64,000 nt of DNA from the NCBI GenBank assembly GCA_945952065.1, contig CAMFGY010000011.1, forward strand, positions 62,001-126,000. The letters run 5' to 3'. Each line of letters starts with the position of its first letter. Position 1 is the stretch's first letter. A program made the translations under genes and the position numbers. Positions 2,536 through 37,396 of the stretch are shown here, one piece after another. Source of the stretch: an uncultured Burkholderiales bacterium. Lineage in GTDB: Bacteria > Pseudomonadota > Gammaproteobacteria > Burkholderiales > Burkholderiaceae_C. A model generated the notes under the pieces. It was not told the DNA's origin, made no database searches, and saw nothing but the letters and a program-made list of their open reading frames with translations.

Positions 2536-3261
2536 ATGTCCGGCAAACCGTCGCCCCTCAACGTTTCCCTCAGCCCAGCCGAGTTGTCCGCCCTGCCCGC
2601 TTCGGAGCGTGTGCGTTACCGTTTGGTCAGCGCCGGCTGCCGCCACCACGCCAATGACAATATCGCCGACTTCATTGAAGACGGCGAGTTGGCCGAGTTG
2701 CAGGCCGAAGTGCAGGCGCAGATGCAAGGAGTCTTGCGCGCGCTGGTCATCGACACCGACAGCGACCACAACACCCAGGACACCGCCAAGCGCGTGGCCA
2801 AGATGTTTGTGCAAGAGATCTTCAAGGGCCGCTACCAGCCCATGCCTTCGGTGACCGAGTTCCCCAATGTCAGCCGCTTGAACGAGCTGATGATTGTGGG
2901 GCCCATCACCGTGCGCAGCGCCTGTTCGCACCACCTCTGCCCCATCATGGGCAAGGTCTGGATCGGCTTGCTGCCGAACGAGCATTCCAATCTGATCGGT
3001 CTGTCCAAGTACGCGCGCATTTGCGACTGGATCATGAGCCGCCCACAGATTCAGGAAGAGGCCGTCACCATGTTGGCCAATGAGTTGCAAGAACGGGTGC
3101 AGCCCGATGGCCTGGCCATCGTGATGGAGGCCGACCACTTCTGCATGCACTGGCGCGGCGTCAAGGACAACGAGTCCAAAATGACCAATAGCGTGATGCG
3201 AGGCGCTTTCCTGAAAGACCCGAATCTGCGCCGCGAATTCCTCTCCCTGATCAAGCCCTGA
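2536..3261 (+). CDS. folE: GTP cyclohydrolase I
   Basis: This enzyme converts GTP to 7,8-dihydroneopterin triphosphate, the first step of tetrahydrofolate and pterin synthesis. The protein has 241 residues, close to the family length. The zinc ligands are C130 and H133 in CSHHLCP and C203 in FCMHWRG. The QDTAKRVAKMF and SKYARICDW blocks are also present. It lies only 29 nt upstream of a BLUF photoreceptor gene and probably shares its transcript. In Pseudomonas putida folE is among the light-induced genes controlled by LitR-type regulators together with photolyase genes, so this pairing may reflect supply of pterin or folate under light. That link is inference. Confidence 0.97.
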   Translation: MSGKPSPLNVSLSPAELSALPASERVRYRLVSAGCRHHANDNIADFIEDGELAELQAEVQAQMQGVLRALVIDTDSDHNTQDTAKRVAKMFVQEIFKGRYQPMPSVTEFPNVSRLNELMIVGPITVRSACSHHLCPIMGKVWIGLLPNEHSNLIGLSKYARICDWIMSRPQIQEEAVTMLANELQERVQPDGLAIVMEADHFCMHWRGVKDNESKMTNSVMRGAFLKDPNLRREFLSLIKP

Positions 3262-3290
3262 AACTCACGCGCCCACCGGAGGTCATTGCC

Positions 3291-3713
3291 ATGCTCGTGC
3301 GCCTTATGTATGCCAGCCGCGCCGCGGACGCCATGTCGGACCAGGCCCTCAGCCTGATCTTGAAGCAGTCTCGCGAGCACAACCCGGCCGAAGGCCTCAC
3401 CGGCCTGCTTTGCTACACCGATGGCATCTTCATCCAAGTGCTGGAGGGCGGGCGCGATGCCGTCAATGCACGCTACAAGCAAATCCTCAGCGACGAGCGG
3501 CACCATTCCGTCATCTTGCTCAGCTATGAGGAAGTGGGCGAGCGGCAGTTTGCCGGTTGGTCCATGGGCCAAGTCAATTTGCACCGGCTCAACCCAGGCT
3601 TGCTGCTGAAGTACTCCGAAACCGGGCGACTCAACCCCTACCGCATGAGCGGCAAGTCGCTGATGGCCTTGTTCCACGAGTTGGTCAGCACCGGCGCCAT
3701 CGTTTGCAACTGA
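3291..3713 (+). CDS. BLUF-domain blue-light photoreceptor
   Basis: A 140-residue stand-alone BLUF protein that binds FAD and senses blue light through hydrogen-bond switching. All key residues are visible with the spacing of AppA: Y7, N31, Q49, then W90 and M92 (AppA Y21, N45, Q63, W104, M106). About 45 residues follow the core fold and form the usual helical cap. There is no output domain, so signalling must go through a partner protein. A good ribosome-binding site (GGAGG at 3278-3282) precedes the ATG. It sits directly behind folE and about 8 kb from the photolyase operon and its MerR regulator, which is a candidate partner. Confidence 0.95.
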   Translation: MLVRLMYASRAADAMSDQALSLILKQSREHNPAEGLTGLLCYTDGIFIQVLEGGRDAVNARYKQILSDERHHSVILLSYEEVGERQFAGWSMGQVNLHRLNPGLLLKYSETGRLNPYRMSGKSLMALFHELVSTGAIVCN

Positions 3714-5218: not shown

Positions 5219-8200
5219 CTATTTGGAGCAGGTGCTGTCGGCCGGCAAGAGACGTGTCACGGCGCTCAAGTCCCGCAGATCCACCGCGCCGTCTTTGTTG
5301 ACATCCGCGCGCGGGTCAAAGCCGGGCTGTCCGGCGCGTTTGCCGTAAGAGGCCTTGACGATGGCGAGGTCGGCGCAGTCGATCTTGCCGTCGCCGTTGG
5401 GGTCAAACGGCAGCTTGATGCTGAAGTCAGCATTGGAGATATCAAAGAACACATTGCCCAAAGCCTCAACCTTGACGCGCGCCTTGCTGCTGGCCACTGC
5501 CGGCACGAGGACGGCACGGCTGCCATTGTTCGGCGTGCTGGCCGCCAGCACATGCGGGTAGGTCAAGCCGCCATCGAAGGACAGGCTGATCTTCACATCG
5601 CTGGTGCCGATGGGCGCCGCATTGGTGCCGGCCACGTCCCAGCTCACGGTTTGCGTCGAGCCCGCGTTCCAAGTGAGCGCCGTGTTGGGCGATGTGACCA
5701 AGAAGGGGCCGGTGCCGGCCGCCAGAATCAGGCTGGTGCTGGCGCTGTTGACGCCCCCCTTGCCATCACGGACGGTGAGCTTGAAATTCAGTGAGGGAGG
5801 ATTGGCATTCACGCCAGCAAAACCCACGTAGGCGGCGGTGGGCAAGAACTCCGAGAAGCACTCGATTTCCTTGAGCGTCGGCGTGGCCGAAGCCGCCGGG
5901 CAATTGCCGGTTTCAGCATTGGTGTTGTTGGCCAAGATTTGGGCCAGATCCGGGAACACGCGCGTGGGGTCGTTGCCCACGATGTTCTCGCCCGGCGAGT
6001 TGTAGAGAATCGTGTTGGCTTCGCTCACTTGCGCGGCCACCCCGAACTGCCGGAACAGCGGGCCATTGGTCTTGGTGTTGCTGATCAGGCTGGTGCCGGT
6101 GGCGCCGCCGCGGTCGTTTTGCTCCCACATATAGCTCAGCGTGTCGCCATCGGCATCGCTGGCCGAGCCGGTCAGCGCAAACGGTGTGCGCAAGGGGATG
6201 GTGTAGCTGGCTGCAGCCGTCACCACCGGGGCGCTGTTGCCGGTGGCACTGATGGCGCCGCGTCGCTGCGTCGCGCCCCCTGCCACGATCTCACCCACAT
6301 AGCCCGTGCAGCCTTCGGTGCAGCCGCTCAGGACCAGCGGCGCCGCGTTCACGCCCGTCAGCGTGCCGCCAAAGCCCACAGTAAAGCCTGCGTCACTCAG
6401 GTTGGTGATCGTGACCACGCCGCCCGCCGGCCAGCCCGGAATCGCCTCGATGGCGGCCTTGATGCCGTCCACCGAATAATTGGCACCGCGCACGATATCG
6501 GCCGAGGCTTTGCCGTTGTAGCTGAGCTGGAATTTGGCCGTGCCCGCAAAGCCGGTCAAGACCGCCTGCTGGGTTTCGCTCAAAGTCGTTTCAGCGCCGG
6601 CGGTGTAGGTGGTGATTTCATCAAAGCTGCGCTGCGACCAATACGCATCGCTGTGCGGCTGCGAGTTGTCGGTGCCGCAAATACCGGCATAGGCCATGAT
6701 GGACGAACCGCTGCCCGGCTCCACGGAGGTGCCGGCATTGCGATTGCTTCCGGTGCAACTGCCGGTCACGCCGTTGAAGGTGTGATTGCCCGCGAACTGG
6801 TGGCCCAACTCATGCGCCACATAGTCCACAGCAAAAAGATCGCCCACCGGCGTGGGCACGCCGGTGCAACCCTGGGCCTTGTTGGAACCGCCCACCACGC
6901 CCAAGCTGGCCAAGCCGCCCCCATTGAGGCCAAAGCCGATATGGCCCACATCGAAGTTGCTGGCGCCGATCAACAGACCAACCACCGTGCGATTGCGGGT
7001 CAGCGTGGAGCTGCTGCAGCCCGAGGCCTGCGTGGTGGTGTAGCAAGCGGCGGCACCGCAAGGGCCGTTGGCCCCGGTCATTTGGGCCGCGGTGTCGAGA
7101 TTGAGTTTGTCGTTGTCATTGACCAGCACCAAGCGGATCGAGGTCTCGTCTTCATAGACATGGGTGATGCGGTTGACCAAGGTCGCTTTGGCCGCGGTCA
7201 CATTGGCCGAGCCGCCAAAGTAGGTGGCATAAGACGGGTCGGTCACCAGGGCCAGGCGGTAGGTACGAAGCTGATTGCCCGTCGACGCGGTGGGCGTTTG
7301 GCTGTCGTCCACCACATGGTAGGCCGCCGTGGCGGTGGTGCGGCCATCGGAGGCGCTGACTTCATAAGCGCCCAGATTGCGGGACGGGTCGGCCTTCAAG
7401 GTGGCCACCAGCGTGCCGTCGCGGTCAGCCTGGGCGGTGACGGTCTGGCGCGCCAAGGTGTCCGTCTCGGGCTGGCGAATCGTCAGGGTCAACGTGGCGC
7501 CGGGCACAAAACCAAAACCGCGCACCTCGACGGCATCACCCGCGTGATAGAAGCCGCGCGTCAGATCCAAATGGGCCTCGTTCAGGGCGCTCTCCAGCAA
7601 TGGTGGGCGCGTATTGGACAAGTCGCCGCGGTGGTAGCTGACGTAAAGGCTGTCGTCCAAGTGGTAGTAGGGGTCGATGTACCAAGCCCCTCGGGGCGAG
7701 CGCACCGAGGCATGCAAGCCCAGCGGCGTGATGTCCAAACGCAAGCTGGCGCGCGGGTCATCGATGCCGCGACCCGCATAGGTTTTGATCTCGGGATGCT
7801 TGGCCGCAAGCCCAGGCTCCATCACCGGCGACTCCACCAAGGCAAAGCGCTGAAAGCCCCCATCCGGGTGCGGCAGCGAGACCTCCAAGCTGCTCAGTTG
7901 CGCGGCGGCCGTGCGCTCCAGCGGCGCGCCCCCCAGATAGGCGGCCAAGCCGGCACGATCCAAAGTCGCTGCACGGTACTTGCTGGGCTGAATGGACGGG
8001 CTGGCGCCGCGCGCGGAGACCTTGGCCGGCGTGGCCTTTTGCTCTTGCCAAAAGGCACCGCTTGCCACGCGATTCGTCAGCACCACATCCTGCACATCGT
8101 CTTGCAGCGCCTGCACGCGGGGCGCCGCCTGAGCCGCAGCGCCGAGCGCCCAAGCGGCCACCGCCATGCCGAGGGCCCGACCGGTCCGGCTGAGAGCAAA

Positions 8201-8260
8201 GCGCGGGGCGCTCGAAGCTTGCTTGTCGGCAAGTCTGCGCGACGAGGATTGGATTGCCAT
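5219..8260 (-). CDS. Secreted metzincin (reprolysin-like) metalloprotease with C-terminal dockerin
   Basis: A 1013-residue extracellular zinc protease. It has a long basic signal peptide (cleavage near residue 45, AAQA) and a propeptide-like region to about 300. The catalytic domain carries the zinc motif HELGHQFAGNH at residues 483-493 and a Met-turn in SGSSIMAYAGICG. Beta-rich domains follow. Residues 953-1007 form a dockerin with two calcium-loop repeats (DPNGDGKIDCADLAIVK and DVNKDGAVDLRDLSAV). The metzincin glycine at motif position 8 is alanine, with glycine next to it. The gene is transcribed away from a cluster that holds a PEP-CTERM cohesin protein, a plausible docking partner. A terminator follows. 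The substrate is unknown. Confidence 0.9.
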   Translation of the reverse strand: MAIQSSSRRLADKQASSAPRFALSRTGRALGMAVAAWALGAAAQAAPRVQALQDDVQDVVLTNRVASGAFWQEQKATPAKVSARGASPSIQPSKYRAATLDRAGLAAYLGGAPLERTAAAQLSSLEVSLPHPDGGFQRFALVESPVMEPGLAAKHPEIKTYAGRGIDDPRASLRLDITPLGLHASVRSPRGAWYIDPYYHLDDSLYVSYHRGDLSNTRPPLLESALNEAHLDLTRGFYHAGDAVEVRGFGFVPGATLTLTIRQPETDTLARQTVTAQADRDGTLVATLKADPSRNLGAYEVSASDGRTTATAAYHVVDDSQTPTASTGNQLRTYRLALVTDPSYATYFGGSANVTAAKATLVNRITHVYEDETSIRLVLVNDNDKLNLDTAAQMTGANGPCGAAACYTTTQASGCSSSTLTRNRTVVGLLIGASNFDVGHIGFGLNGGGLASLGVVGGSNKAQGCTGVPTPVGDLFAVDYVAHELGHQFAGNHTFNGVTGSCTGSNRNAGTSVEPGSGSSIMAYAGICGTDNSQPHSDAYWSQRSFDEITTYTAGAETTLSETQQAVLTGFAGTAKFQLSYNGKASADIVRGANYSVDGIKAAIEAIPGWPAGGVVTITNLSDAGFTVGFGGTLTGVNAAPLVLSGCTEGCTGYVGEIVAGGATQRRGAISATGNSAPVVTAAASYTIPLRTPFALTGSASDADGDTLSYMWEQNDRGGATGTSLISNTKTNGPLFRQFGVAAQVSEANTILYNSPGENIVGNDPTRVFPDLAQILANNTNAETGNCPAASATPTLKEIECFSEFLPTAAYVGFAGVNANPPSLNFKLTVRDGKGGVNSASTSLILAAGTGPFLVTSPNTALTWNAGSTQTVSWDVAGTNAAPIGTSDVKISLSFDGGLTYPHVLAASTPNNGSRAVLVPAVASSKARVKVEALGNVFFDISNADFSIKLPFDPNGDGKIDCADLAIVKASYGKRAGQPGFDPRADVNKDGAVDLRDLSAVTRLLPADSTCSK

Positions 8261-8377
8261 CGGAAGTCCTTTACAAAGGCCGTATTGGGGTCTGCGCGAA
8301 ACGGCAAATGCCCGCTGCGCTCACAAGACTGCGAAGATAGATGACAAGCCAAGCCCAGAGGTAGAGGGTCAATCCTG

Positions 8378-8878
8378 ATGAGAAAAACACCTGCATGGTC
8401 CGTCTACGGCCGCTGTTTCGCGGCCTTGTGGCTGCTGACTCTGAGCAGCACAAGCCTGGCTCGGGCCGAGCTTGCCGCCACTGAACTAGCGCCCCAGTTC
8501 AGCGGTATTCGCTTGGAGAAAAGCTGCTTCGGCTGCGCAGATGGGGTCCGTGTGGTGCTGCAGCGCGAGGGCTTGGCCACCCGCACCGTGCTGGGCCAAG
8601 CGCGCCTGGGCACGGTCGATCAAAGCCAGTCCAGCCCCTTGAGCCGCGAGGACTTTGAGACATTGCTGCGTTTCATCTTGGAACAGGGCTTTCTGGATCT
8701 CCTCGAGGTTTACGAAGATGCTGACTTGCGCGATGGCAGCTGGACCCAAATCACACTGAGCGGCAATGGCCGGGAGAAAACCGTTTTTCAGCGCGAGTCA
8801 GCCGGCCCAGCTGCGCTGCAAGCCATGGTCGCCGCCATCCAAGACTTGGCCGGGCAACTCTTCAAAACGACACACTGA
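8378..8878 (+). CDS. Exported DUF6438-like protein
   Basis: A 166-residue protein with a signal peptide ending near residue 30 (SLARA). The mature part reads like the DUF6438 family: an early segment with two cysteines (SCFGCADGVRVVL), then LSREDFETLLRFILEQGFLDLLEVYEDADLRDG, shown here in part as LSREDFETLL and EVYEDADLRDG, followed by a strand pattern ending with REKTVF. Function is unknown. It lies between the divergent metalloprotease and the cohesin gene, 162 nt before the latter. The family call is from memory of the motif pattern. Confidence 0.65.
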   Translation: MRKTPAWSVYGRCFAALWLLTLSSTSLARAELAATELAPQFSGIRLEKSCFGCADGVRVVLQREGLATRTVLGQARLGTVDQSQSSPLSREDFETLLRFILEQGFLDLLEVYEDADLRDGSWTQITLSGNGREKTVFQRESAGPAALQAMVAAIQDLAGQLFKTTH

Positions 8879-9040
8879 AGGCCGGCACCCTGGAACACGG
8901 GCCGGGATTCCCCTCTTGTTGGCACGATGTCGGCATTGAAAGATGCGCAGCATGAAGTCGGCCCTGCATTGCGCCTGCAGCGGCCCATCCACAAAAAGCC
9001 GCACAGGCAGATCGCCGCCAAGGCAAAGGAGTGAGTCACT

Positions 9041-9697
9041 ATGGCCCGTCGTCCCTCAGACTTGAAAACAGCAACTCGCTGGCAGAGGCCCTTGGCTGCC
9101 GCATTGCTGCTGAGTGCTTTGTCGGCCCCGACCCTGGCGGCCGATCCGGTGCTGTCCATCACCGCCACGCCCAACCCAGCCGTGCAAGGCTCGAACGTCA
9201 GCCTGGACGTGTTGATCAGCGGCATCAACGATCTGTATGGCTACCAGTTCTCGCTGTCTTTTGACCCCAAGATTTTGCAAGCCAGCAGCGTCAGCGAGGG
9301 CTCGTTCCTGAGCAGCGGCGGCGGCAACACCTTTGCCGACGGCGGCACCATCGACAACAGCCTGGGCACGGTGTCCTTCATCTTCAATTCCCTCGTGGGG
9401 GCGGTGCCTGGCGTGAGCGGCAGCGGCAATTTGGCGCGCATCAATTTCAATGTCACCGGCGCGGGCAGCAGCGCGCTGAACTTCAGCGACGCCCTCTTCC
9501 TGAATTCGAGTCTGACGGATTTGCCGGTGCAGATTCAAAACGGCAGCTTGCAAGCATTGCCGGTGCCCGAGCCTGCGTCTTATCTGATGCTGATGGCCGG
9601 CTTGACGGGGCTGGCGGCCGTACGCCGACGCGCTTCGCGCCCGGCTGCCAGCGAGCCAGCGCCCGTCCAGCCGGCTGGCATCACTCAGCTCCCATAA
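9041..9697 (+). CDS. PEP-CTERM protein with a cohesin domain
   Basis: A 218-residue exported protein. The signal peptide ends near residue 34 (TLAA). Residues about 38-172 form one cohesin-type beta-sandwich (TATPNPAVQGSNVSLDVLIS, DLYGYQFSLSFDP, the ASSVSEGSFLSSGGG segment and a final VSGSGNLARINFNV strand). A PEP-CTERM sorting signal follows: VPEPAS at 175-180, a hydrophobic helix, then RRR at 195-197. An exosortase would cut here and attach the protein to the cell surface or matrix; none is in the window. Unusually, 20 residues follow the arginine cluster. AAAGGAG at 9025-9031 is a strong ribosome-binding site. Its stop overlaps the convergent DUF2845 gene by 13 nt. Confidence 0.88.
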   Translation: MARRPSDLKTATRWQRPLAAALLLSALSAPTLAADPVLSITATPNPAVQGSNVSLDVLISGINDLYGYQFSLSFDPKILQASSVSEGSFLSSGGGNTFADGGTIDNSLGTVSFIFNSLVGAVPGVSGSGNLARINFNVTGAGSSALNFSDALFLNSSLTDLPVQIQNGSLQALPVPEPASYLMLMAGLTGLAAVRRRASRPAASEPAPVQPAGITQLP

Positions 9698-11445: not shown

Positions 11446-11844
11446 TCAGTCCCAGCGGCGCGCCCAGCGCTGCAAGGCCGGGCGGCAGCGCAAAAAAACG
11501 GCGTAGGCCCAATCCATCACCGCGCTCACACCCGGCAGCGCCCCCAGCCACGCCAAGCAGCGCCAGCCCGGCAGGCGCGCCCACAAGGCCAAGAAGGCGG
11601 CGGCCCCTTGCAACAAGTGGCCATCTGCGGTCTGCACATGAAAGCGCGCCAGCAACTGCGCCTGCGTGGTGCCCGGCGGCAAGGGCGTGGCGGGCTGGCT
11701 GATATCGACGTAGTGCACCGCCTCGCGTGCACAAAGCCCTTGGTACAGCCCGATCTCGCGGCGGCACAAGGGGCAGGCCCCGTCGTACAAGACGGTCAAG
11801 CCCTGCGGTGCAGTCGACGGGGGCTCGGGCGGCTGGGTGCTCAT
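11446..11844 (-). CDS. DCC-family (DUF393) thiol-disulfide oxidoreductase-like protein
   Basis: A 132-residue protein with the DCC signature YDGACPLCRREI at residues 20-31; C24 and C27 form the CxxC pair. The rest fits the DUF393 pattern: a DIS segment after strand 2 and a Trp/Arg-rich C-terminus. The cellular substrate is unknown. Its ATG overlaps the stop of the upstream FAD-domain gene by 4 nt (ATGA), so the two are translationally coupled. This ties it to the photolyase operon, where DCC proteins are frequent neighbours. Confidence 0.88.
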   Translation of the reverse strand: MSTQPPEPPSTAPQGLTVLYDGACPLCRREIGLYQGLCAREAVHYVDISQPATPLPPGTTQAQLLARFHVQTADGHLLQGAAAFLALWARLPGWRCLAWLGALPGVSAVMDWAYAVFLRCRPALQRWARRWD

Positions 11845-13058
11845 CGCGCGGCTGGCCCTGTCGCCAGCAATTCTGAGGCCTTGCGCAGACCCCGGGTGCT
11901 GCGCGCCCACCAGGAGAAGAAGGACGACTGCGGCGCCTGCACCTCGGGAAACAAAAGCGGCTCAGGCGCGCAGTCGGCCCATTGCGCCAGCCAGGGCTGC
12001 AAGTGCCAGTCCATCACGCAGCGCACCGAGGCCGCGCCGGCCAGGGCGCGACCGATGGAGGCCGCATCGTCCCACCAATGCACGATGGCCGCTTGCGCCT
12101 GCAACTCCGCCAGGCGCTCGCCAATGAATCGCCAGCGCTGCACGCTCCAGGGCCAGGCCTGATGAAAGTCTTTCACCCACACCATCAGCACCAAGGTCTG
12201 CGGCGCCAGGTGGGCCGGCAAGTCACCCAAGCTCCAGGGATGCAAGAGCCAGACCTCGCGACCCTGGACCTGCGCGGCCTCAGCCGCGCCCGCGGCCCAG
12301 GCTTGCGGCGGCGCGCTTTGCAGCACCGGCTCTGGCACTCCGGTCCAGGCAGGGGCCAGCGTCTCGGCTGCTGCGCCTGCGAACCGGTCGCGCGCCATTG
12401 AGTCCAGCGCTGCATAGCTGGCGTCGACCACAGTGCCTGGGCTGTGCCACGCAGGGGGCGCATAACGGGCCACATTGGCGGCATTGAACAGATAGGGCTT
12501 GCGGCTGCCAGTGCCGGCCACCCATTGCCAGCTCAGGTGGTTGCTGGCGAGGTCGCCGTCCAGCAAATGCGCGTACATCCAATCGGCAGCGCAGCGCCAA
12601 TGAAGCTTGCGCACATGCACGCAATAGCTGGCCAGCCACATGCGCGCATGGTTGTGCAACATGCCGCTTGCGTAGAGGCAGCGCACCGCTTCGTCCACCG
12701 CCGGCACGCCGCTGCGCCCCTGACGAATGTCGTCGGGCAGCGCGGTGGCATAGGCCTCCTCCGGCAAAGGGCCGGCATGCAGCGAGCGAAAGATGGCCGC
12801 GCCGCGATGCCGCCACACATGCCTGAAGTACGCCCGCCAGCCCAACTCGAAAACCCATTTGTGCTGCACCTCCAAGTCGCCTCGGGCCAGCACCCCAGCC
12901 AGCACCTGAGGCAGGCTCAGCACCCCGTGGGTGATGTAGGGCGAGAGACCTGACACCGCGCCCGTCAGGTGATTGCGGCTGCCCGCATAGGCAGCGGGGC
13001 GCACGGCCTGCAGGCGCGCCTGCGCCGCCGCCAAGCGGCCTTCAATCGGCGCGAGCAT
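11841..13058 (-). CDS. Photolyase/cryptochrome-like protein with the FAD domain at the N-terminus
   Basis: A 405-residue protein that begins almost directly with the photolyase FAD-binding helical domain: LSPYITHGVLS, FELGWRAYFRHVW, the ASGMLHNHARMWLAS block, then LLDGDLASNHLSWQWVAGTG and PYLFNAANV. A normal photolyase has an alpha/beta antenna domain in front; it is absent. Instead about 150 residues follow, with a Rossmann-like pattern (LVLMVWVKDF, RWRFIGERLAEL, RCVMDWH). This resembles a displaced antenna domain. The ATG at 13058 follows AGGAGA and overlaps the end of the upstream photolyase gene by 17 nt; the end overlaps the DCC gene. It probably binds FAD; repair or signalling function is unknown. 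Confidence 0.85.
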   Translation of the reverse strand: MLAPIEGRLAAAQARLQAVRPAAYAGSRNHLTGAVSGLSPYITHGVLSLPQVLAGVLARGDLEVQHKWVFELGWRAYFRHVWRHRGAAIFRSLHAGPLPEEAYATALPDDIRQGRSGVPAVDEAVRCLYASGMLHNHARMWLASYCVHVRKLHWRCAADWMYAHLLDGDLASNHLSWQWVAGTGSRKPYLFNAANVARYAPPAWHSPGTVVDASYAALDSMARDRFAGAAAETLAPAWTGVPEPVLQSAPPQAWAAGAAEAAQVQGREVWLLHPWSLGDLPAHLAPQTLVLMVWVKDFHQAWPWSVQRWRFIGERLAELQAQAAIVHWWDDAASIGRALAGAASVRCVMDWHLQPWLAQWADCAPEPLLFPEVQAPQSSFFSWWARSTRGLRKASELLATGPAAR

Positions 13059-14634
13059 GGGCGTCTCCTGTGTCAGTCGGCAGGCCTCCGACCTCGCCGC
13101 GCCGCAGCGCCGCCGCCCGCTCACCAATGGCACGGCGCTGTGCCTCGTTCAAACGCGCCAGATTTTTCACCTGCAAAGCCATGCGCGGGTTCTCGCTCAA
13201 ACGGCGTTCGTGTCGCATCAAAAAATCCCAGTACAGCGTGGTGAAGGGGCAGGCGCGCGGGCCCTCGCGCTGGGCCGGATCAAAACGGCAGCCTGCGCAA
13301 AATGGGCTCATGCGATCAATGTATTTGCCGGTAGCCACATAGGGCTTGCTGCCCATCAAGCCGCCATCGGCGAACTGGCTCATGCCCAGGCTGTTGGGCA
13401 GCTCCACCCACTCCACCGCATCCACATACATGGCCAAGTACCAGGCGTGCACCTGCTGGGGCCGAACGCCCAACATCAGCGCATAGCTGCCGGTCACCAT
13501 CAAGCGTTGAATGTGGTTGGCATAGCCATATTGCAAGGTCTGGCCGATGGCGTCACGCAAGCAGGCCATCTCGGTCTGGCCGTCCCAGTACCAGGCGGGC
13601 AATTCTTGTTCGGCCTGCAAGGCATTACGCTCCACATAGCCAGGCATCTGCGTCCAGTAGACGCCGCGCACATATTCGCGCCAACCCAGGATCTGACGCA
13701 CAAAGCCCTCCACGCTGCTCAAAGGCGCGTGGCCGCGCTCATAGGCCGCCACCGCTGCGGCCACCACTTCACGGGGATTCAGCAGCTTGAGATTGAGCGC
13801 AGCTGACAGCTGCGCGTGATAGAGCCAAGGGTCGCCCGGCCACATCGCATCTTGGTAGCGCCCAAACAAGGGCAGGCGATCGGTCACAAAGGCTTGCAAG
13901 GCCTGCAGCGCCTGGCTGCGGGTCAGCGGCCAAGCGAAGCTGTCCAAGCTGCCCGGATGCTGGGCAAAGCGCTCGCGTACCAAGGCCAGCACCTCGCAGG
14001 TCAAGGCATCGGGCTCAAAACGCGGACGTTCGGGCATGAAGCCCGGCCCGGCAGCACCGAAGCTCTCGCGGTTGTCGGCGTCAAAGTTCCATTGGCCGCC
14101 CAGAGGCGCGTCTTCGCGCTGCGGGTCCATCAAGATGCGGTGCTTTTTGCGCTGCTCGCGGTAGAAGTACTCCAGTCGCAAGGACTTGCGTCCCCGTGCA
14201 TGGGCGGCAAACTCCCGCACGCTGCAAAAGAAATGCCGGTCTTCGCGAATCTCCAAGGGCAGGCCGCAGGCCTGCGCCGCAGACTTCAGGGCCTGCAGCA
14301 CCCGCCAGTCGCCGGGCGCCGTCATCAGCAAACGCTCGGGCCGCAGGCGGGCCACATCGGCCTGCAACTGCGCCGCCAAGCGGCCGGCATTGCCGGCTTG
14401 GTCCAGGCACATGTAGTGCACCGTGCGACCCGATTTCTGAAGCTCGTATGCGAAATGCCGCATGGCAGCCAAGAAGAGCGCAATGCGCGCCTGGGCCGAG
14501 GGCACATGGCAGGACTCCTCTTGCACCTCAGCCATCCAGACGGCATCCAGCGCGGGGTCGAAACCGTCAAAGGCGGCGGCTTCCAGGTCGAGTTGATCGC
14601 CCAGCACCAGCACCAAATGTCGCAGACCCGCCAT
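13042..14634 (-). CDS. Fe-S bacterial cryptochrome/photolyase, (6-4) photolyase type
   Basis: A 530-residue member of the FeS-BCP/CryPro family, which repairs (6-4) photoproducts using FAD, a ribityllumazine antenna and a 4Fe-4S cluster. The N-terminal antenna domain starts LRHLVLVLGDQL, typical of this family. The four cluster cysteines are all present: one in EMACLRD, two in SPFCAGC and one in RACPF. Their spacing (88, 3 and 13 residues) equals that of Agrobacterium PhrB (C350, C438, C441, C454). I chose the ATG at 14634, 5 nt after the DUF2256 stop; an upstream TTG at 14643 is less likely. It sits in a tight operon with DUF2256 before it and the FAD-domain protein after it. Confidence 0.95.
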   Translation of the reverse strand: MAGLRHLVLVLGDQLDLEAAAFDGFDPALDAVWMAEVQEESCHVPSAQARIALFLAAMRHFAYELQKSGRTVHYMCLDQAGNAGRLAAQLQADVARLRPERLLMTAPGDWRVLQALKSAAQACGLPLEIREDRHFFCSVREFAAHARGRKSLRLEYFYREQRKKHRILMDPQREDAPLGGQWNFDADNRESFGAAGPGFMPERPRFEPDALTCEVLALVRERFAQHPGSLDSFAWPLTRSQALQALQAFVTDRLPLFGRYQDAMWPGDPWLYHAQLSAALNLKLLNPREVVAAAVAAYERGHAPLSSVEGFVRQILGWREYVRGVYWTQMPGYVERNALQAEQELPAWYWDGQTEMACLRDAIGQTLQYGYANHIQRLMVTGSYALMLGVRPQQVHAWYLAMYVDAVEWVELPNSLGMSQFADGGLMGSKPYVATGKYIDRMSPFCAGCRFDPAQREGPRACPFTTLYWDFLMRHERRLSENPRMALQVKNLARLNEAQRRAIGERAAALRRGEVGGLPTDTGDAHARAD

Positions 14635-14639
14635 CGCCC

Positions 14640-14804
14640 TCAAGCCTTGCAGCTACGGCAGGCCGCAGAACAAAACTTCACTTCGCGCCAGTTCTTGGCC
14701 CAGCTTTTGCGCCAGGTCATCGGCCGCCCACACGCCACACAGGGTTTGCTGGGCAAGCTGGACTTGTTGCCACGAAAAGACTTGCCACGCGAGGCAGCTT
14801 TCAT
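14640..14804 (-). CDS. DUF2256 small zinc-ribbon-like protein
   Basis: A 54-residue basic protein with CVAC and CSAAC pairs flanking TWRKSWAKNWREVKFCS. This is the DUF2256 signature (Cys pair, R-P-x-TWRKxW, VKYC). The four cysteines suggest a metal-binding knuckle. Start at the ATG at 14804; a longer frame upstream lacks similarity. DUF2256 genes are commonly found beside Fe-S photolyase genes, and here the stop is 5 nt from the photolyase start. A role in photolyase maturation or DNA contact is an inference only. Confidence 0.88.
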   Translation of the reverse strand: MKAASRGKSFRGNKSSLPSKPCVACGRPMTWRKSWAKNWREVKFCSAACRSCKA

Positions 14805-14842
14805 GGCCAGGGGCGCTGAGGCATTCAAGACAGCGGCCCGGC

Positions 14843-15154
14843 TCAAGCCTTTTTGGCCCAGGCGCTGCACCAGCCGGCAGCCGCCACCTGTTTGCCGGCG
14901 AACAAGGGGCAGCCACCCGCTTTGTCGCCCGCCTTGCCTTGGTACAGGGCGCAATTGGCACAGTTCTGCCCCGTCGCGAATTTGGGGTACTTTTTCGCGT
15001 CCACCCGCTTGGCCTCGGCCACATAACCCAGGGCTGCGGCCTGGGCGTCTTTCTCATCGACGGCAACCTGGGCCATGGCATGGCCCGCGCTCAGGCTTGC
15101 GCCCGAGGCGGCCACGGTCATCAAGAAAACGCGGCGTTGAATGTTGCGGCTCAT
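14843..15154 (-). CDS. High-potential iron-sulfur protein (HiPIP), Tat-exported
   Basis: A 103-residue protein with a twin-arginine signal (QRRVFLM at residues 6-12; cleavage near 28). The mature part has the HiPIP ligand pattern C65, C68, C82 and C96, with YVAEAKRVDAKKYP ahead of it and GWCSAW at the end. HiPIPs carry single electrons in the periplasm, for example to photosynthetic reaction centres or terminal oxidases. It is the first gene of the photolyase run, 38 nt before DUF2256. It is also the gene nearest to the divergent MerR regulator. Why a periplasmic electron carrier leads a DNA-repair operon is unclear. Confidence 0.93.
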   Translation of the reverse strand: MSRNIQRRVFLMTVAASGASLSAGHAMAQVAVDEKDAQAAALGYVAEAKRVDAKKYPKFATGQNCANCALYQGKAGDKAGGCPLFAGKQVAAAGWCSAWAKKA

Positions 15155-15331
15155 GGGAACTCCTTGCGATGGCTAACGAGGGGACGGAGGCAAGTCCTTG
15201 GCCGCCATGCGGACAAAGAACCAGCGGCGTGAAGCATAGTTAGCTTCGATTCAAACTGAGGTCATCGACAGCAATACCCGCGAACAAGGCCAACTTTTTC
15301 CGCGTCAAAGCCGATTCAATCAAGGCCGCAC
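15155..15331. promoter_or_regulatory. Divergent promoter region between HiPIP operon and merR, with inverted repeat
   Basis: A 177-nt space separates the divergent HiPIP and MerR genes and must hold both promoters. The clearest element is GAAGC-7 nt-GCTTC at 15231-15247. MerR regulators often control the adjacent divergent operon from such a region. I did not find the TGTACA-type direct repeat described for Pseudomonas PplR1. Confidence 0.4.
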
Positions 15332-16411
15332 ATGCCCAAAAAATCACCGACTCCTTCAGCCCCGGCCGCCACCGCCCCAGCCGCCCTTTACCGCAGCGGC
15401 GCCGTGGCGCGCATGTTGCGCATGCCGGTGGCCACGTTGCGGGTGTGGGAGCGCCGCTATCAACTCAGCCAGCCCGCCACCAGCCCCAGCGGGCAGCGCC
15501 TGTATTCGGCCGCTGAGGTGCAACGCTTGGCCCTGCTCAAACGTCTGAGCGACCTGGGCCATGCCATTGGCAGCCTGGCGCGACTGGACATGGCGCAGTT
15601 GCAAGCCGTTGCCGCCACCCATGCGCAGGCCTTGTGCGCCGCCCATGAAAACAAGCCGCATGAAAACAGCGCCCGCGAGCGCCCCAAGGTCCCCGCTGAT
15701 TCAAGGCGCACGGCCTTCTGGCGCATCGCCCTGGTGGCGAAGGACCCCGCAGGTGGCGCAACACTGGCCCAAGCGTTGAGCCGCCCCGCCCTGCTGCGCC
15801 GGCTGGACCGGCCCTTGCAAGTGCTGGGGCCTTTCAAGAGCGAGGCTGAGGCGGCGGCCGCTCTGCGCAATCAGCCGGTCGACCTGCTGCTGCAACAAGC
15901 CGCACGCCTGCACGGCGACGAAGCTCTTCACCGCGCTGCAGCCGCACCCTGGCGCCACCAAGCGCTTTGCTATCGCTATGCCAGCGAAGCCAGCTGCGAA
16001 CGACTGGCCGAAGCCGGCGTGGCCTTGCTGCGAGAACCGCAAAGCGACAGCGCACGCGGCCAGTGGCTGCAAAACCTTTTGCAAACGCCCTTGCAAGACC
16101 CAGAGCCCAGCATCGCCGCACCCGACGCCCCGGTGCCCCCGCGGCGCTGGGACGATGCCGCCCTGGCCGACTTTGCCGCACTGTCCTCTACGGTAGATTG
16201 CGAATGCCCGCGCCATGTGGCCGAGCTGCTGATGCAGCTCTCACACTTCGAACGCTACAGCGAAGAATGCCAAAACCTGAGCCCGGCTGATGCACGGCTG
16301 CACCAGCAATTGCGCACCGTCGCTGCGCAATCCCGCGCCAGCTTTGAAACCGCACTGAGCTGGATCGCCCAGCACGAGGGGCTGGTGTTGCCGCCCGACG
16401 CGGGTTCGTAA
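15332..16411 (+). CDS. MerR-family regulator, LitR/CarH-like without a recognisable B12 site
   Basis: A 359-residue protein. Residues 20-90 are a MerR DNA-binding domain (YRSGAVARMLRMPVATLRVWERRYQL, quoted in part as YRSGAVARML and VWERRYQL), with the WERRY sequence shared with CarH and LitR. Residues about 130-250 look like a Rossmann-type segment, but I see neither the W-x9-EH motif nor the ExHxxG cobalamin motif of CarH. The C-terminal part has CECPRH (C290, C292) and a third cysteine C313 near FERYSEEC. It is divergent from the HiPIP-photolyase operon and so is its likely regulator. The sensor could be the BLUF protein, a metal or Fe-S site, or another factor; this is inference. Confidence 0.8.
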   Translation: MPKKSPTPSAPAATAPAALYRSGAVARMLRMPVATLRVWERRYQLSQPATSPSGQRLYSAAEVQRLALLKRLSDLGHAIGSLARLDMAQLQAVAATHAQALCAAHENKPHENSARERPKVPADSRRTAFWRIALVAKDPAGGATLAQALSRPALLRRLDRPLQVLGPFKSEAEAAAALRNQPVDLLLQQAARLHGDEALHRAAAAPWRHQALCYRYASEASCERLAEAGVALLREPQSDSARGQWLQNLLQTPLQDPEPSIAAPDAPVPPRRWDDAALADFAALSSTVDCECPRHVAELLMQLSHFERYSEECQNLSPADARLHQQLRTVAAQSRASFETALSWIAQHEGLVLPPDAGS

Positions 16412-32354: not shown

Positions 32355-34076
32355 ATGTCCTTCCGCCCGAACGTTTTGAGCAGCCTGGTTGCTGCCGCCC
32401 TCGTCACCATGGCCGCGCAAGCCAGCGCTCAAGTCTTCAACGGCTCGCTCACCCAAGGTGTCAGCAGCTCGGCTTCGTCCTACATCAAAGGCGCGACCGG
32501 CTATGACATCACCTCCATCATCACCGCCGGTGATGCGGTCGGCGGCTACCGCATGTCCGGTCTGCCCGACGGCCTGGGCGCTTTCGACAATGGCAACGGC
32601 ACCTTCACCGTGCTGATGAACCATGAAATCGGCTCTGGCGCCGGCATCACCCGCGCTCACGGCGGCACGGGCGCTTTCGTGTCGAGCTGGGTCATCGACA
32701 AGAACACGCTGCAAGTCAAATCGGGCGGCGACCTGATCCAACGCGTGTACGGCTGGGATGCCGCCACGCAAGCGACAGGCGCCCAAGTCACCGGCTCGGC
32801 TCTGTCCTTCCAGCGCTTTTGCTCGGCCGACCTGGCCGCGGCTTCGGCCTACACCTACACCGATGCCAACACCGGCAAGACCTATGGCACCAGCTCGCGC
32901 ATCTTCCTGAACGGTGAAGAAGTCGGTTCCAGCACCAACAGCCGCGCCATGGCTCACGTGGCCACCGGCAGCGATGCGGGCAGCAGCTTCGTGCTGGGCA
33001 AGTTCAACCCGGCCACCAACGGCAGCGGTTTGAACCAGTACTCCGCTTATGAAAACCTGGCCGCCAACCCCTTCAGCCAACTGAAGACCGTGGTGGTGGG
33101 CCAGAACGACGGCGGCACCGGCATCGCCTCCAACGCCGTGGCCGTGTACGTGGGCACCAAGACCGATGTCGGCAGCGCTGTGGACCGCGCCGGCCTGACC
33201 AATGGCGTGATGAAGTACGTCAATGTGGCAGGCGTCAGCAACGAAATCGCTGACAGCAGCACCCGCGCGACCAATATCGCCAACGGCAGCCGCTTCACGC
33301 TGAGCGCCACGGCTTCGACCACCTTCTCGCGTCCCGAAGACGGCGCCTGGGATGTGCGTGCGGGCAAGCACAACGTCTACTACTTCGTCACCACCGATCG
33401 CCTGGACGGAACCGAGCTGAGCGGCGGCACGCAAGTCGGCGCGACCCGTCTGTGGCGCATGACTTTTGACGACATCGCCAACCCTGACGCCGGTGGCAAA
33501 CTGGACATCCTGGTCGACGGCAGCAAGATGCCCGGCGGCGTGGGCAACAGCCGCGCCAATATGTTTGACAACATGACGGTCAACAAGGACGGCACCATCA
33601 CCTTGATGGAAGACACCGGCGGCGCTGACCACAACGGCAAGATCTGGGAATACAACCTGGAAACAGGCGCCATCAAGATCGTCGCCAAGTCCGACACCAC
33701 CCGCTTTGGCGATGTGGTGAACGGCGTGTTCACCGGCCCCTCCACCGGCAAGACCACGCCGAACGGCAGCACCGGCTACCACACCAACGACGAAGAGACC
33801 TCGGGCATCATCGACGTGACCGACATCTTCGACGCCGCCGGCACCTCGGGCAAGAAGTACCAGCTCTTCGTGACGCAAGACCACGCCAGCGCTGCTGGCC
33901 TGAACACGGCCGGCATGCTCAACGGCGGTGACCCTGCCGGTATCGTGGAAGGTGGTCAGCTGCAACTGATGGTCAGCGACATCACCACCGCCGTGCCAGA
34001 ACCCGAAACCTATGCCCTGATGTTGGCCGGTTTGGGTCTGGTGGGCTTTGCCGCTCGCCGCAAGACTCAGCGTTGA
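32355..34076 (+). CDS. PhoX-like (DUF839) PEP-CTERM protein
   Basis: A 573-residue exported protein from the ATG at 32355 (AGGAG at 32342-32346). The signal peptide ends near residue 25 (ASA). The body resembles DUF839/PhoX beta-propellers: FTVLMNHEIG, FLNGEE, FSRPEDGAWD and MEDTGG blocks, with repeated acidic loops that could bind calcium. PhoX proteins are calcium-dependent phosphatases, but activity is not proven here. The C-terminus is a PEP-CTERM signal (VPEPETYALMLAGLGLVGF then ARRK), so it is an exosortase substrate for the envelope or matrix. It has the same conserved upstream block as the gene at 36617. Confidence 0.85.
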   Translation: MSFRPNVLSSLVAAALVTMAAQASAQVFNGSLTQGVSSSASSYIKGATGYDITSIITAGDAVGGYRMSGLPDGLGAFDNGNGTFTVLMNHEIGSGAGITRAHGGTGAFVSSWVIDKNTLQVKSGGDLIQRVYGWDAATQATGAQVTGSALSFQRFCSADLAAASAYTYTDANTGKTYGTSSRIFLNGEEVGSSTNSRAMAHVATGSDAGSSFVLGKFNPATNGSGLNQYSAYENLAANPFSQLKTVVVGQNDGGTGIASNAVAVYVGTKTDVGSAVDRAGLTNGVMKYVNVAGVSNEIADSSTRATNIANGSRFTLSATASTTFSRPEDGAWDVRAGKHNVYYFVTTDRLDGTELSGGTQVGATRLWRMTFDDIANPDAGGKLDILVDGSKMPGGVGNSRANMFDNMTVNKDGTITLMEDTGGADHNGKIWEYNLETGAIKIVAKSDTTRFGDVVNGVFTGPSTGKTTPNGSTGYHTNDEETSGIIDVTDIFDAAGTSGKKYQLFVTQDHASAAGLNTAGMLNGGDPAGIVEGGQLQLMVSDITTAVPEPETYALMLAGLGLVGFAARRKTQR

Positions 34077-34997: not shown

Positions 34998-36323
34998 ATG
35001 CAAACCAAGACCACCCTGTTGGCGGCCCTGCTGGCCGCCGGACTGTGTGCCACCGGCTCGGCCACCGCCGCGCGCAACAGCTATGACATGACCATCCTGG
35101 TCGCCAACGACGCCAAGTACAAGCCCACCGTCATGGTCGACCCCGACCTGGTCAACCCCTGGGGCATCGCCTTGCGCCCGCCCGGCATCGGCGGCCACAT
35201 CTGGACCAGCAATGCCGGCAGCGGCACCACCACCACCTACATCGGCGACGTCAACGGCAAGCCGCTTTACCAAGATGGCCTCAAGGTCATTCCCATCGCC
35301 CAAGCCAAGGGCGTGGAGGCTTACACCCCGCAGGTGACCGGGCAGGTTTACAACGCCGCCAGCGATATCGCCGGCCAGCCGACCGAGTTCTTTGTCTCGG
35401 GTGCCGCCACCAACTGGAACACCGGCGCATCGGCCGGCACCATCTCGGGCTCGGCCAAATTCGTGTTCGTCACCCTGGACGGCACCATCAACGCTTGGCG
35501 CGCCGGCACCAACCCCGGCATGAATGAAGCCGTGGTGGTGAAGGACTATTCGGGCAGCTGGGCCGGTGCCAACGGCTATCAGTACACCCCCAATTTCACG
35601 GGGGTGGCCATGACCACCGCCAGCTTCAAGCTGGATGCGCAAGGCAACAAGGTGGCGGACAACCGGCTCTATGCGACCGACTTCGCCAACAACCGCATCA
35701 TGACCTTCGACAACCAGTGGAACGACATCAGCGATCGCGTCCACTTCGAGCGGCCCAGCGATCTGCAAAACGACTTCATGCCCTTCAACATCCAGGACAT
35801 CGGAGGGCGTCTGTACGTGGCCTATGCCGCCAGCGAATTCGACCCGCTGATGCCCAGCGAGCCGGTGCGCGCGCCAGCCCATGGCCGCGTGATTGCCTAT
35901 GACCGCGATGGCCACATCGTGCAGGACTTCAAAGACCAGCTCGACATGAACGCCCCTTGGGGCCTGGCGATGGCGCCGACCAGCTTTGGCGCCTTTGGCG
36001 GCAAGCTCTTGGTGGCCAATTTCGGCGACGGCAGCATCGCCGCGCTGGACCCCGAGACCGGCGCCACCCTGGGCAAGCTCAAAGACGCCGCCGGCAAGAC
36101 CCTCTTCATCGATGGCATCTGGGGCCTGACCTTCGGCAACGGCGTCAGCCTCGGCGACGCCAACTCGCTGTACTTCACCGCCGGCCCCAATCTGGAAGAA
36201 GACGGCATCTTGGGCAAGCTCACCGTCAGCGCCGTGCCGGAGCCCAGCAGCTACGCCTTGCTCTTGGGCGGCCTAGGCGGCCTGGGCATGCTGGGCGCCC
36301 TCCGCCGCCGCTCGGCGCACTGA
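34998..36323 (+). CDS. TIGR03118-type PEP-CTERM beta-propeller protein
   Basis: A 441-residue exported protein with a signal peptide ending near residue 25 (ATA). The mature part starts with DLVNPWGIALRP and repeats WGL/WGI motifs (NAPWGLAMAP, IWGLTFGN), typical of the TIGR03118 family, which is predicted to form a beta-propeller. The final VPEPSSYALLLGGLGGLGM then RRRS is a PEP-CTERM signal. Function is unknown; NHL-like propellers often bind sugars or act as lyases or lactonases. It does not share the conserved upstream block of its two PEP-CTERM neighbours. Confidence 0.88.
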   Translation: MQTKTTLLAALLAAGLCATGSATAARNSYDMTILVANDAKYKPTVMVDPDLVNPWGIALRPPGIGGHIWTSNAGSGTTTTYIGDVNGKPLYQDGLKVIPIAQAKGVEAYTPQVTGQVYNAASDIAGQPTEFFVSGAATNWNTGASAGTISGSAKFVFVTLDGTINAWRAGTNPGMNEAVVVKDYSGSWAGANGYQYTPNFTGVAMTTASFKLDAQGNKVADNRLYATDFANNRIMTFDNQWNDISDRVHFERPSDLQNDFMPFNIQDIGGRLYVAYAASEFDPLMPSEPVRAPAHGRVIAYDRDGHIVQDFKDQLDMNAPWGLAMAPTSFGAFGGKLLVANFGDGSIAALDPETGATLGKLKDAAGKTLFIDGIWGLTFGNGVSLGDANSLYFTAGPNLEEDGILGKLTVSAVPEPSSYALLLGGLGGLGMLGALRRRSAH

Positions 36324-36616: not shown

Positions 36617-37396
36617 ATGTTCCTACCTTCCCAAATCATCGGCGGCCTGGCATTGGCCGCTCTTGCGCTGAGCGGTGTCACCGCCCATGCCGCCACTGAC
36701 TTGATCGTCAACGGCGGCTTTGAAGCCGGCGCCAGCAATGTGCAGTCCCCAGACCCCATCACCGGCTGGGCCTCGGCCGAGCGCGGCATTCTGGGCGGGG
36801 TGATGGTGCTCAGCGGCAACGAGTCGCTGGTGTCGGGCGGCGCCACCGTGGGCGCGGCCAGCGGCAAGAACTATGCTTTGCTGGACACCGCCGGCAACGC
36901 CGATCTGGCCCTGCTGCAACGCTTCACCGTGGCCCAAGCCCTGCAGTCCGCCACGCTGAGCTTTGACTGGTTTGCCAACTACGGCGGCACCCAAGCCGGC
37001 CCCGTGGGCCAAGCCTTTGGCCTGGACCACACCACGGGCGGCAGCTACGACGCCAATGTGCACATTCGCGTCGACATCTTGAAGGACGGCGCCAGCGACT
37101 TCAGCACCGCCGCCACCGACCTGATCTGGAGCGGCGCCGCCGACACCTTGAGCAAGGGCCCGAACAACTACACCCAGGCCCAAATCAGCCTGGACAGCAG
37201 CTTGTTCGAGGCCGGCAAGAACTACACGCTGCGTTTCGCTGCCGTGTCCAACGACGGCAGCCTGATCGCTGGCCTGGACAACGTGGCCTTGAACGTTGAA
37301 GTCTCCCCCGTGCCCGAGCCACAAAGCTGGGCCTTGATGGCTGCCGGCTTGGGCTTGCTGATGGCCAGCCGCCGCTCGAGCGCCAAGCGCCGCTGA
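36617..37396 (+). CDS. PEP-CTERM protein, carbohydrate-binding-like
   Basis: A 259-residue exported protein, start at the ATG at 36617 after CCAGGAGTCC. The signal peptide ends near residue 25 (AHA). The mature domain begins DLIVNGGFEAG and runs as a beta-sandwich with SLLF/LDNVALN at the end, which is the layout of DUF642 or CBM-like domains in many PEP-CTERM proteins. The tail VPEPQSWALMAAGLGLLM then SRRSS is a PEP-CTERM signal. It is 33 nt before the alkaline phosphatase and probably shares a transcript with it. Confidence 0.85.
   Translation: MFLPSQIIGGLALAALALSGVTAHAATDLIVNGGFEAGASNVQSPDPITGWASAERGILGGVMVLSGNESLVSGGATVGAASGKNYALLDTAGNADLALLQRFTVAQALQSATLSFDWFANYGGTQAGPVGQAFGLDHTTGGSYDANVHIRVDILKDGASDFSTAATDLIWSGAADTLSKGPNNYTQAQISLDSSLFEAGKNYTLRFAAVSNDGSLIAGLDNVALNVEVSPVPEPQSWALMAAGLGLLMASRRSSAKRR

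Follow-up and report, generated by a model that had tools for sequence, protein, structure and literature searches.

A metzincin with a C-terminal dockerin beside a single-cohesin PEP-CTERM protein: a probable one-enzyme, one-socket display in Burkholderiales

A stretch of 64,000 nucleotides from an uncultured Burkholderiales bacterium (GenBank assembly GCA_945952065.1, contig CAMFGY010000011.1, positions 62,001 to 126,000 of the forward strand), here called the window, encodes an M12B metzincin that ends in a dockerin and, close to it, a protein consisting of a single cohesin and a PEP-CTERM sorting signal. The two proteins very probably constitute a one-enzyme, one-socket display, in which the protease docks via its dockerin onto the exosortase-processed cohesin outside the cell. 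The cohesin protein would be exported, its PEP-CTERM tail is predicted to be cut by an exosortase, and the processed protein would then be delivered to the outer surface or to exopolysaccharide. The metzincin would be exported separately from the cohesin, and its dockerin would plug into the cohesin in a calcium-dependent manner, keeping the protease at the cell, with the presumed benefit that digestion products are kept nearby. This proposal was built on computed domain identities, the fold of a cohesin model, active-site residues, the presence of exosortases, gene linkage, co-presence and co-absence of the two genes, and the clustering of cohesins by cargo. The features of the locus, in coordinates of the window, are the following.

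5219..8260, minus strand: secreted M12B metzincin with C-terminal dockerin, 1013 amino acids (open reading frame; Pfam Reprolysin_2 and Dockerin_1)
6650..7207, minus strand: Reprolysin-like catalytic domain, metzincin residues 352-537
6782-6814, minus strand: zinc motif HELGHQFAGNH, metzincin residues 483-493
6689-6703, minus strand: Met-turn SIMAY, starting at metzincin residue 520
5246..5407, minus strand: type I dockerin with two calcium-type loops, metzincin residues 952-1005
8378..8878, plus strand: intervening small gene, 166 amino acids; DUF6438 match under its cut-off
9041..9697, plus strand: single-cohesin PEP-CTERM protein, the proposed socket, 218 amino acids (open reading frame; Pfam)
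9182..9547, plus strand: Cohesin domain (PF00963), residues 48-169 of the 218-residue protein
9560..9631, plus strand: PEP-CTERM sorting signal, residues 174-197 of the 218-residue protein

An earlier note on the window, made from its letters, had claimed that the metzincin ends in a two-repeat dockerin and that a cohesin-fold protein with a PEP-CTERM anchor is encoded 0.8 kilobases (kb) away, and had named the hidden Markov models PF00963 and PF00404 as a check. With these models, both proteins exceeded the curated Pfam cut-offs. Dockerin_1 (PF00404) was identified in residues 952-1005 of the metzincin with an E-value of 4.2e-9 and 36.9 bits (cut-off 22.9), covering the two calcium-type loops, and Cohesin (PF00963) in the 218-residue protein with 1.5e-14 and 54.8 bits (cut-off 24.1). 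The PEP-CTERM tail of the latter scored 27 bits (cut-off 20.7), and Reprolysin_2 was identified in the metzincin with an E-value of 1.5e-28 and 100.4 bits (cut-off 27); the N-terminal signal sequence of the metzincin was called by eye only. The two genes are divergent, lie on opposite strands and do not form an operon, being separated by a gap of 780 base pairs that contains the small gene.

In its structure model, with a mean predicted local distance difference test (pLDDT) value of 89.1, the window cohesin adopts the cohesin fold. The best match in the PDB was the noncellulosomal cohesin 2xdh of Archaeoglobus fulgidus (E-value 1e-11), followed by cellulosomal cohesins, and each of the 50 PDB matches shown for the model was a cohesin, a cohesin-like module or a chain from a cellulosome complex. 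On the level of sequence profiles, the cohesin matched best the cellulosomal cohesin dyad 3l8q (E-value 8.3e-14), and the dockerin the cellulosomal GH48 dockerin 2y3n_B (E-value 1.2e-12). A model of the dockerin together with the preceding immunoglobulin (Ig)-like domain, with a pLDDT of 84.8, gave the X-module-dockerins 4u3s_B, 4wi0_B, 5k39_B and 5m0y_B as best matches.

The source genome comprises 5.27 megabases (Mb) on 74 contigs. The earlier note had recognised no further dockerin or cohesin in the window, and the same was found for the whole genome, which holds one of each over the Pfam cut-off. For the dockerin, Pfam gave one additional weak match (E-value 0.63), and with a broader custom dockerin profile the metzincin dockerin was the only match at an E-value of 0.05 or below (1.9e-28). 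For the cohesin, a single Pfam match was identified at an E-value of 1 or below, and no second one; a custom cohesin profile was not run genome-wide, so that a divergent cohesin could have escaped Pfam. Exosortase genes, for which a search had also been proposed, were identified in two copies, and 66 of 69 PEP-CTERM matches in the genome exceeded the cut-off. The window itself holds three further PEP-CTERM tails over the cut-off, at 33990-34064, 36231-36311 and 37307-37375 on the plus strand.

Within the genus, the metzincin was identified in 10 of 18 genomes, in each case with a C-terminal dockerin and an adjoining cohesin gene. Cohesins over the Pfam cut-off were present in the same ten genomes and in none of the other eight. 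The earlier note had named three outcomes that would refute its view of a matched pair; the two that concern domain matches and co-conservation were put to the test, neither occurred, and the view is supported. At least four of the eight genomes without the metzincin contain a different pair, in which a dockerin protein of 601-659 amino acids is followed by a PEP-tailed cohesin under the Pfam cut-off (G301, G308, G311, G310). According to the NCBI taxonomy, Paucibacter and Roseateles belong to the Betaproteobacteria; the source organism is presumably aerobic, as we take its genus to be.

Among 299 genomes of the family, searched at an E-value of 1e-20 or below with two candidates scored per genome, eight contained a metzincin homologue. 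The six long homologues all have a dockerin and a cohesin neighbour. The two short ones (G076 and G181, in frames of 662 and 667 amino acids, best stretches 44-49% identical) stop, as judged by eye, at the end of the Ig-like domain that precedes the dockerin, and a search of the surrounding 18 kb yielded neither a dockerin nor a cohesin nor a PEP-tail match. These dockerin-less homologues without a cohesin are a natural control for the pairing. The linkage of metzincin and cohesin also survives gene rearrangement, the genes being divergent in Paucibacter, Roseateles and Rubrivivax, and in tandem, with abutting frames, in Massilia, Duganella, Rugamonas and Pseudoduganella.

On the level of the family, a cohesin was identified in 38 of the 299 genomes at an E-value of 0.01 or below, a dockerin in 66 and both in 27 (Fisher p 2.9e-12, not corrected for relatedness). 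Of 26 short tailed cohesins, 25 lie beside a dockerin gene, 19 of them by Pfam on both sides and six by custom profile; the chance expectation for a distance of up to 10 kb is about 0.03 of the 26 (given 91 Pfam dockerin matches in the 299 genomes, with genomes of 5 Mb assumed). These 25 make up half of the 50 cohesin matches in the family, the other 25 having no dockerin neighbour. Among the latter, 16 are secretins with a cohesin (five by Pfam, ten by BLAST to those and a 798-residue frame of G239) and five are frames of more than 7,000 amino acids. The rest are a 3153-residue frame without a custom-profile match (G056), a 992-residue frame with its own dockerin (G051), a 233-residue frame that lacks a PEP tail and lies on a contig of 4.7 kb (G163), and a 218-residue PEP protein (G056).

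A second draw, made from named genomes, yielded 49 cohesin loci; a dockerin is present at 45 of them, and at 43 cohesin and dockerin are encoded by separate neighbouring genes. This draw overlaps the first, and loci that reappear in it under other names had served to train the custom profiles, so it is not independent. It includes two pairs labelled Acidobacteriota (L171, L176) and one labelled Methylomirabilota (L154), all from metagenome-assembled genomes, for which wrong binning is possible. In 303 genomes of the class, a cohesin was identified in 26, a dockerin in 48 and both in nine including the source genome, as counted by eye. Of the eight loci outside the family, G447, G595, G349 and G375 each contain a cohesin gene with a PEP tail or a variant of it next to a dockerin gene, and G516, G387 and G392 have a cohesin and a dockerin near each other with no PEP tail seen.

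Some cohesin and dockerin genes of other arrangement were recorded alongside. A recurrent type in the family is a secretin that has a cohesin at its C-terminus and no dockerin gene beside it (L004, L011, L012, L022 and L027, with 11 more by BLAST). At L184, L186 and L188, dockerin frames of 613 amino acids have a cohesin-like frame of 323-399 amino acids without PEP tail at a distance of 1.4-1.5 kb, possibly a pair with another anchor. L191, L192 and L197 carry dockerins with the two-cysteine pattern described below, and 16 kb of sequence at each showed no cohesin.

The pattern extends beyond what the earlier note saw: many neighbouring pairs with different cargo were identified. Eighty such pairs were collected, the cargo of which falls into 24 clusters by BLAST, 15 of them singletons and the metzincins being the largest with 26 members. 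The set was not de-duplicated (three couples are more than 95% alike in the cohesin), and L190 and L195 are included despite weak cohesin scores. For 29 neighbour dockerin proteins, Pfam identified as cargo M12B metzincins, gingipain-type C25 peptidases, an M20-type peptidase, GH10, GDSL lipases, a penicillin amidase, VWA7, a PD40 beta-propeller and unknowns. The dockerin lies inside the last 95 residues in 76 of the 80 pairs. The frames, read from stop to stop, run from dockerin to cohesin in 53 pairs, are divergent in 15 and run from cohesin to dockerin in 12; L165 is probably cohesin-first.

Cohesins were found to cluster by the cargo of their neighbour. In a cohesin tree of 76 rows, with L136, L182, L176 and L152 left out, the neighbour cargo changes 24 times; the minimum is 22, the mean after shuffling 48.3, and none of 200 shuffles was as low. 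Because this tree was built from few columns and contains several long branches, only the clustering was relied on. In Pseudoduganella buxea, which contains two pairs, the metzincin-paired (L143) and the lipase-paired (L168) cohesins group with their own cargo types and not together. For one representative per cargo group, the cohesin distances correlate with the dockerin distances (n 14, r 0.59, p 2.5e-4).

Textbook metzincins carry the zinc motif HExxHxxGxxH. None of the 26 metzincins has this motif in its strict form. All 26 have HE[LMI]GHQF[AS]GNH, in which the three His and the Glu are retained and the Gly lies one position later, together with the Met-turn S[IV]MAY. In two dockerin-less homologues (L204:8202-10187, minus strand; L205:8196-10196, plus strand), the sites read HEMGHQFGANH and HEIGHQFGADH, with the Gly, unlike in the dockerin-bearing group, at the textbook place.

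For the dockerins, a conserved pair of cysteines was identified. Of 58 sequences (L136, L182, L176, L122 and L165 of 63 were left out of this count and of the all-pairs distance test), 43 have a Cys in loop 1, and all 43 also have one in the last eight residues, as defined by alignment column; a loop Cys alone occurs in none, a C-terminal Cys only in six, and neither in nine. In cellulosomal dockerins, this loop 1 position is occupied by a recognition Ser. In the window metzincin, this pair is represented by Cys962 of loop 1 and by Cys1011 close to the C-terminus, and both columns are invariant in a 36-row alignment assembled from two-Cys dockerins. Several Asp columns of the loops are invariant in the dockerin alignments, and loop 2 reads V/I/L/A-R-D, with the Arg in 41 of 43. 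Judged from these columns, Cys962 and Cys1011 may form a disulfide clasp, which would leave loop 2 as the likely contact. Cellulosomal type I dockerins have near-symmetric repeats which permit two binding modes. The mean identity between the repeats was 42% for 23 metzincin-type and 58% for six C25-type dockerins, values that stand without a cellulosomal reference.

These findings admit a wider proposal, for and against which we see the balance as even: a general plug-and-socket display in Gram-negative bacteria, in which each exported cargo, be it a peptidase, a xylanase-like GH10 protein, a lipase, an amidase or a protein of adhesion type, is encoded beside its own single-cohesin, exosortase-anchored socket, the pairs within a cell are mutually specific, and a disulfide-locked dockerin binds in one orientation. 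The pairs would have spread as gene modules through the Burkholderiales and perhaps to the Acidobacteriota and Methylomirabilota.

Several results weigh against the display. With divergent genes in the source genome, co-expression of the pair is not given. The matches of the dockerin model are modest (E-value 1e-4, TM-scores of about 0.3, large root-mean-square deviations), with unrelated Ig domains close behind. Only 23 of the 29 neighbour dockerins exceed the Pfam cut-off, L119, L163, L165, L168, L169 and L172 resting on the custom profile, and a [VILMQ]PEP motif is present in the last 60 residues of 69 of the 80 cohesins, the other 11 having variant tails or being cut. Seven of the eight metzincin-less genus genomes still give cohesin matches under the cut-off. 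Within the metzincin pairs (25 of 26, without L136), cohesin and dockerin distances correlate weakly once the catalytic region is accounted for (partial r 0.24, p 0.0012), and since related sequences cluster anyway, the tree and distance tests by themselves do not prove co-evolution. No dockerin was found for the tailed cohesins in G056 (L217) and, outside the family, in G436 (L234), nor at L166 and L167 (short contigs), nor for a PEP protein resembling a cohesin that lies at the end of a contig in G299 (L209). Finally, from the 91 dockerin matches 20 loci were picked because no Pfam cohesin lies nearby; seven of them have no cohesin found, three have a cohesin-like gene without PEP tail 1.4-1.5 kb off, and ten adjoin a divergent cohesin gene, with two of these weak (L190 and L195, E-values 0.4 and 4).

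The same data can be read in three other ways. The pair might bind in the periplasm or during export, with the cohesin as a transient escort, inhibitor or folding partner and not as a lasting outer anchor. Strict one-to-one linkage would fit an escort, too. For PepA of Aquincola, periplasmic export followed by later transfer to extracellular polymers was proposed in the available text of PMC9850573. This reading is nevertheless unlikely, for the cargo ranges over peptidases, GH10, lipase, amidase, VWA7 and beta-propeller proteins, in part without a Pfam enzyme domain that could be inhibited, and cohesin-dockerin bonds are described as strong (available text of PMC9012536). For Aquincola tertiaricarbonis, a PEP-CTERM protein was described to be involved in flocculation and was proposed as a part of the extracellular matrix (PMC9850573, available text), and one strain of this species has a cohesin-dockerin pair (L161). 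This case supports an outer location of the window cohesin, as in the proposed display, without showing it.

Alternatively, the dockerin might have another target, for instance a polysaccharide or a different cohesin-like protein, and regulatory or historical reasons might account for the neighbouring cohesin gene. The divergent strands and the intervening gene in the source genome would agree with this, as would the dockerins without a cohesin neighbour. We consider it very improbable, given a linkage that is kept through rearrangement and across many cargo clusters, dockerin-less homologues without an adjoining cohesin, and a source genome in which Pfam finds no other cohesin. Least credible of all, to the point of being nearly dismissible, is a superficial resemblance of an EF-hand-like tail and an unrelated beta-sandwich without functional relation. 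EF-hand models do match the metzincin tail weakly, and the dockerin profile also matches calmodulins with E-values near 0.003, but both domains exceed curated cut-offs, the best PDB profile matches are cellulosomal (2y3n_B, 3l8q), and the cohesin fold agrees.

Noncellulosomal cohesins and dockerins were reportedly described across the domains of life by Peer et al. in 2009. With the cellulosome, the window pair shares the cohesin and dockerin modules, and its sequence profiles match cellulosomal ones best. The cellulosome has a multi-cohesin scaffoldin, whereas none was found here in a genome with one cohesin match at an E-value of 1 or below; it has several plant-cell-wall enzymes with dockerins, whereas here there is one dockerin protein, a peptidase; and the anchor differs, being PEP-CTERM in the window. 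With PEP-CTERM/exosortase sorting, it shares a tail over the cut-off and two exosortases in the genome. The pair of A. fulgidus, the cohesin of which is the best fold match (2xdh), likewise combines cohesin and dockerin outside cellulose degradation; it is archaeal, whereas the window pair is bacterial, and to our knowledge it has no exosortase-type anchor with neighbouring enzyme cargo. In E. coli, it has served as one of the orthogonal means of surface display (PMC9705933, available text).

For freshwater Planctomycetes, a 'planctosome' was put forward as a hypothesis, in which peptidases including M12B reprolysin-like ones are docked by cohesin-dockerin contacts (PMC6461901). The available text proposes a lamin-tail-domain anchor of 2,210 amino acids and an adaptor, in contrast to the 218-residue single-cohesin PEP-CTERM protein with one neighbour-encoded cargo described here. 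A planctosome-type adaptor was not recognised in the source genome, which holds no second cohesin or dockerin over the cut-off, lamin-tail domains not having been searched for. In anaerobic methanotrophic (ANME) archaea, noncellulosomal dockerins and cohesins occur in genomes with exosortase or archaeosortase domains, where a single protein may carry as many as five cohesins and the cargo includes binding proteins of ATP-binding cassette transporters; one-to-one gene pairs as in the window are not described in the available text of these accounts (PMC5244752, PMC9012536). No open-access paper was found that joins PEP-CTERM with cohesin, with dockerin or with both, most subscription papers being outside the search, and one paper was found in which dockerin and exosortase occur together (PMC5244752, available text). 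Cohesin-dockerin pairs as such are already known; their joining with PEP-CTERM was not met in the open-access literature searched.

According to a 2017 review, it is not known what cohesins and dockerins do outside cellulosomes (PMC5244752, available text). The tightly linked one-to-one pairs offer a clear and testable answer, namely one cargo mounted on one exosortase-anchored socket. This would also give one class of PEP-CTERM proteins a role, and protein engineering gains a large natural stock of binding pairs that may be orthogonal.

For the surroundings of the pair, some minor observations were made. Nothing ties the small gene at 8378..8878 to the system, its DUF6438 match being the only one and its conservation at other divergent loci not having been checked. 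In a PADLOC defence search, both the metzincin and the cohesin protein were without a match at an E-value of 0.01 or below. A sigma-54-like site at 8920-8935 upstream of the cohesin gene, an idea taken from a paper on an RpoN-dependent PEP-CTERM gene, was not supported: matches in the window are at chance level (11 against 13.9 expected), and among the ten genus loci scored, a comparable site at almost equal spacing occurs in the nearest relative (L130; p 0.015, window p 0.02), the other eight giving p values of 0.76 or above. The locus is flanked, at 2536-3713 and 11841-16411, by a light-response-like set identified by Pfam, consisting of a GTP cyclohydrolase I, a BLUF blue-light sensor, two photolyase-type proteins and a MerR-family regulator.

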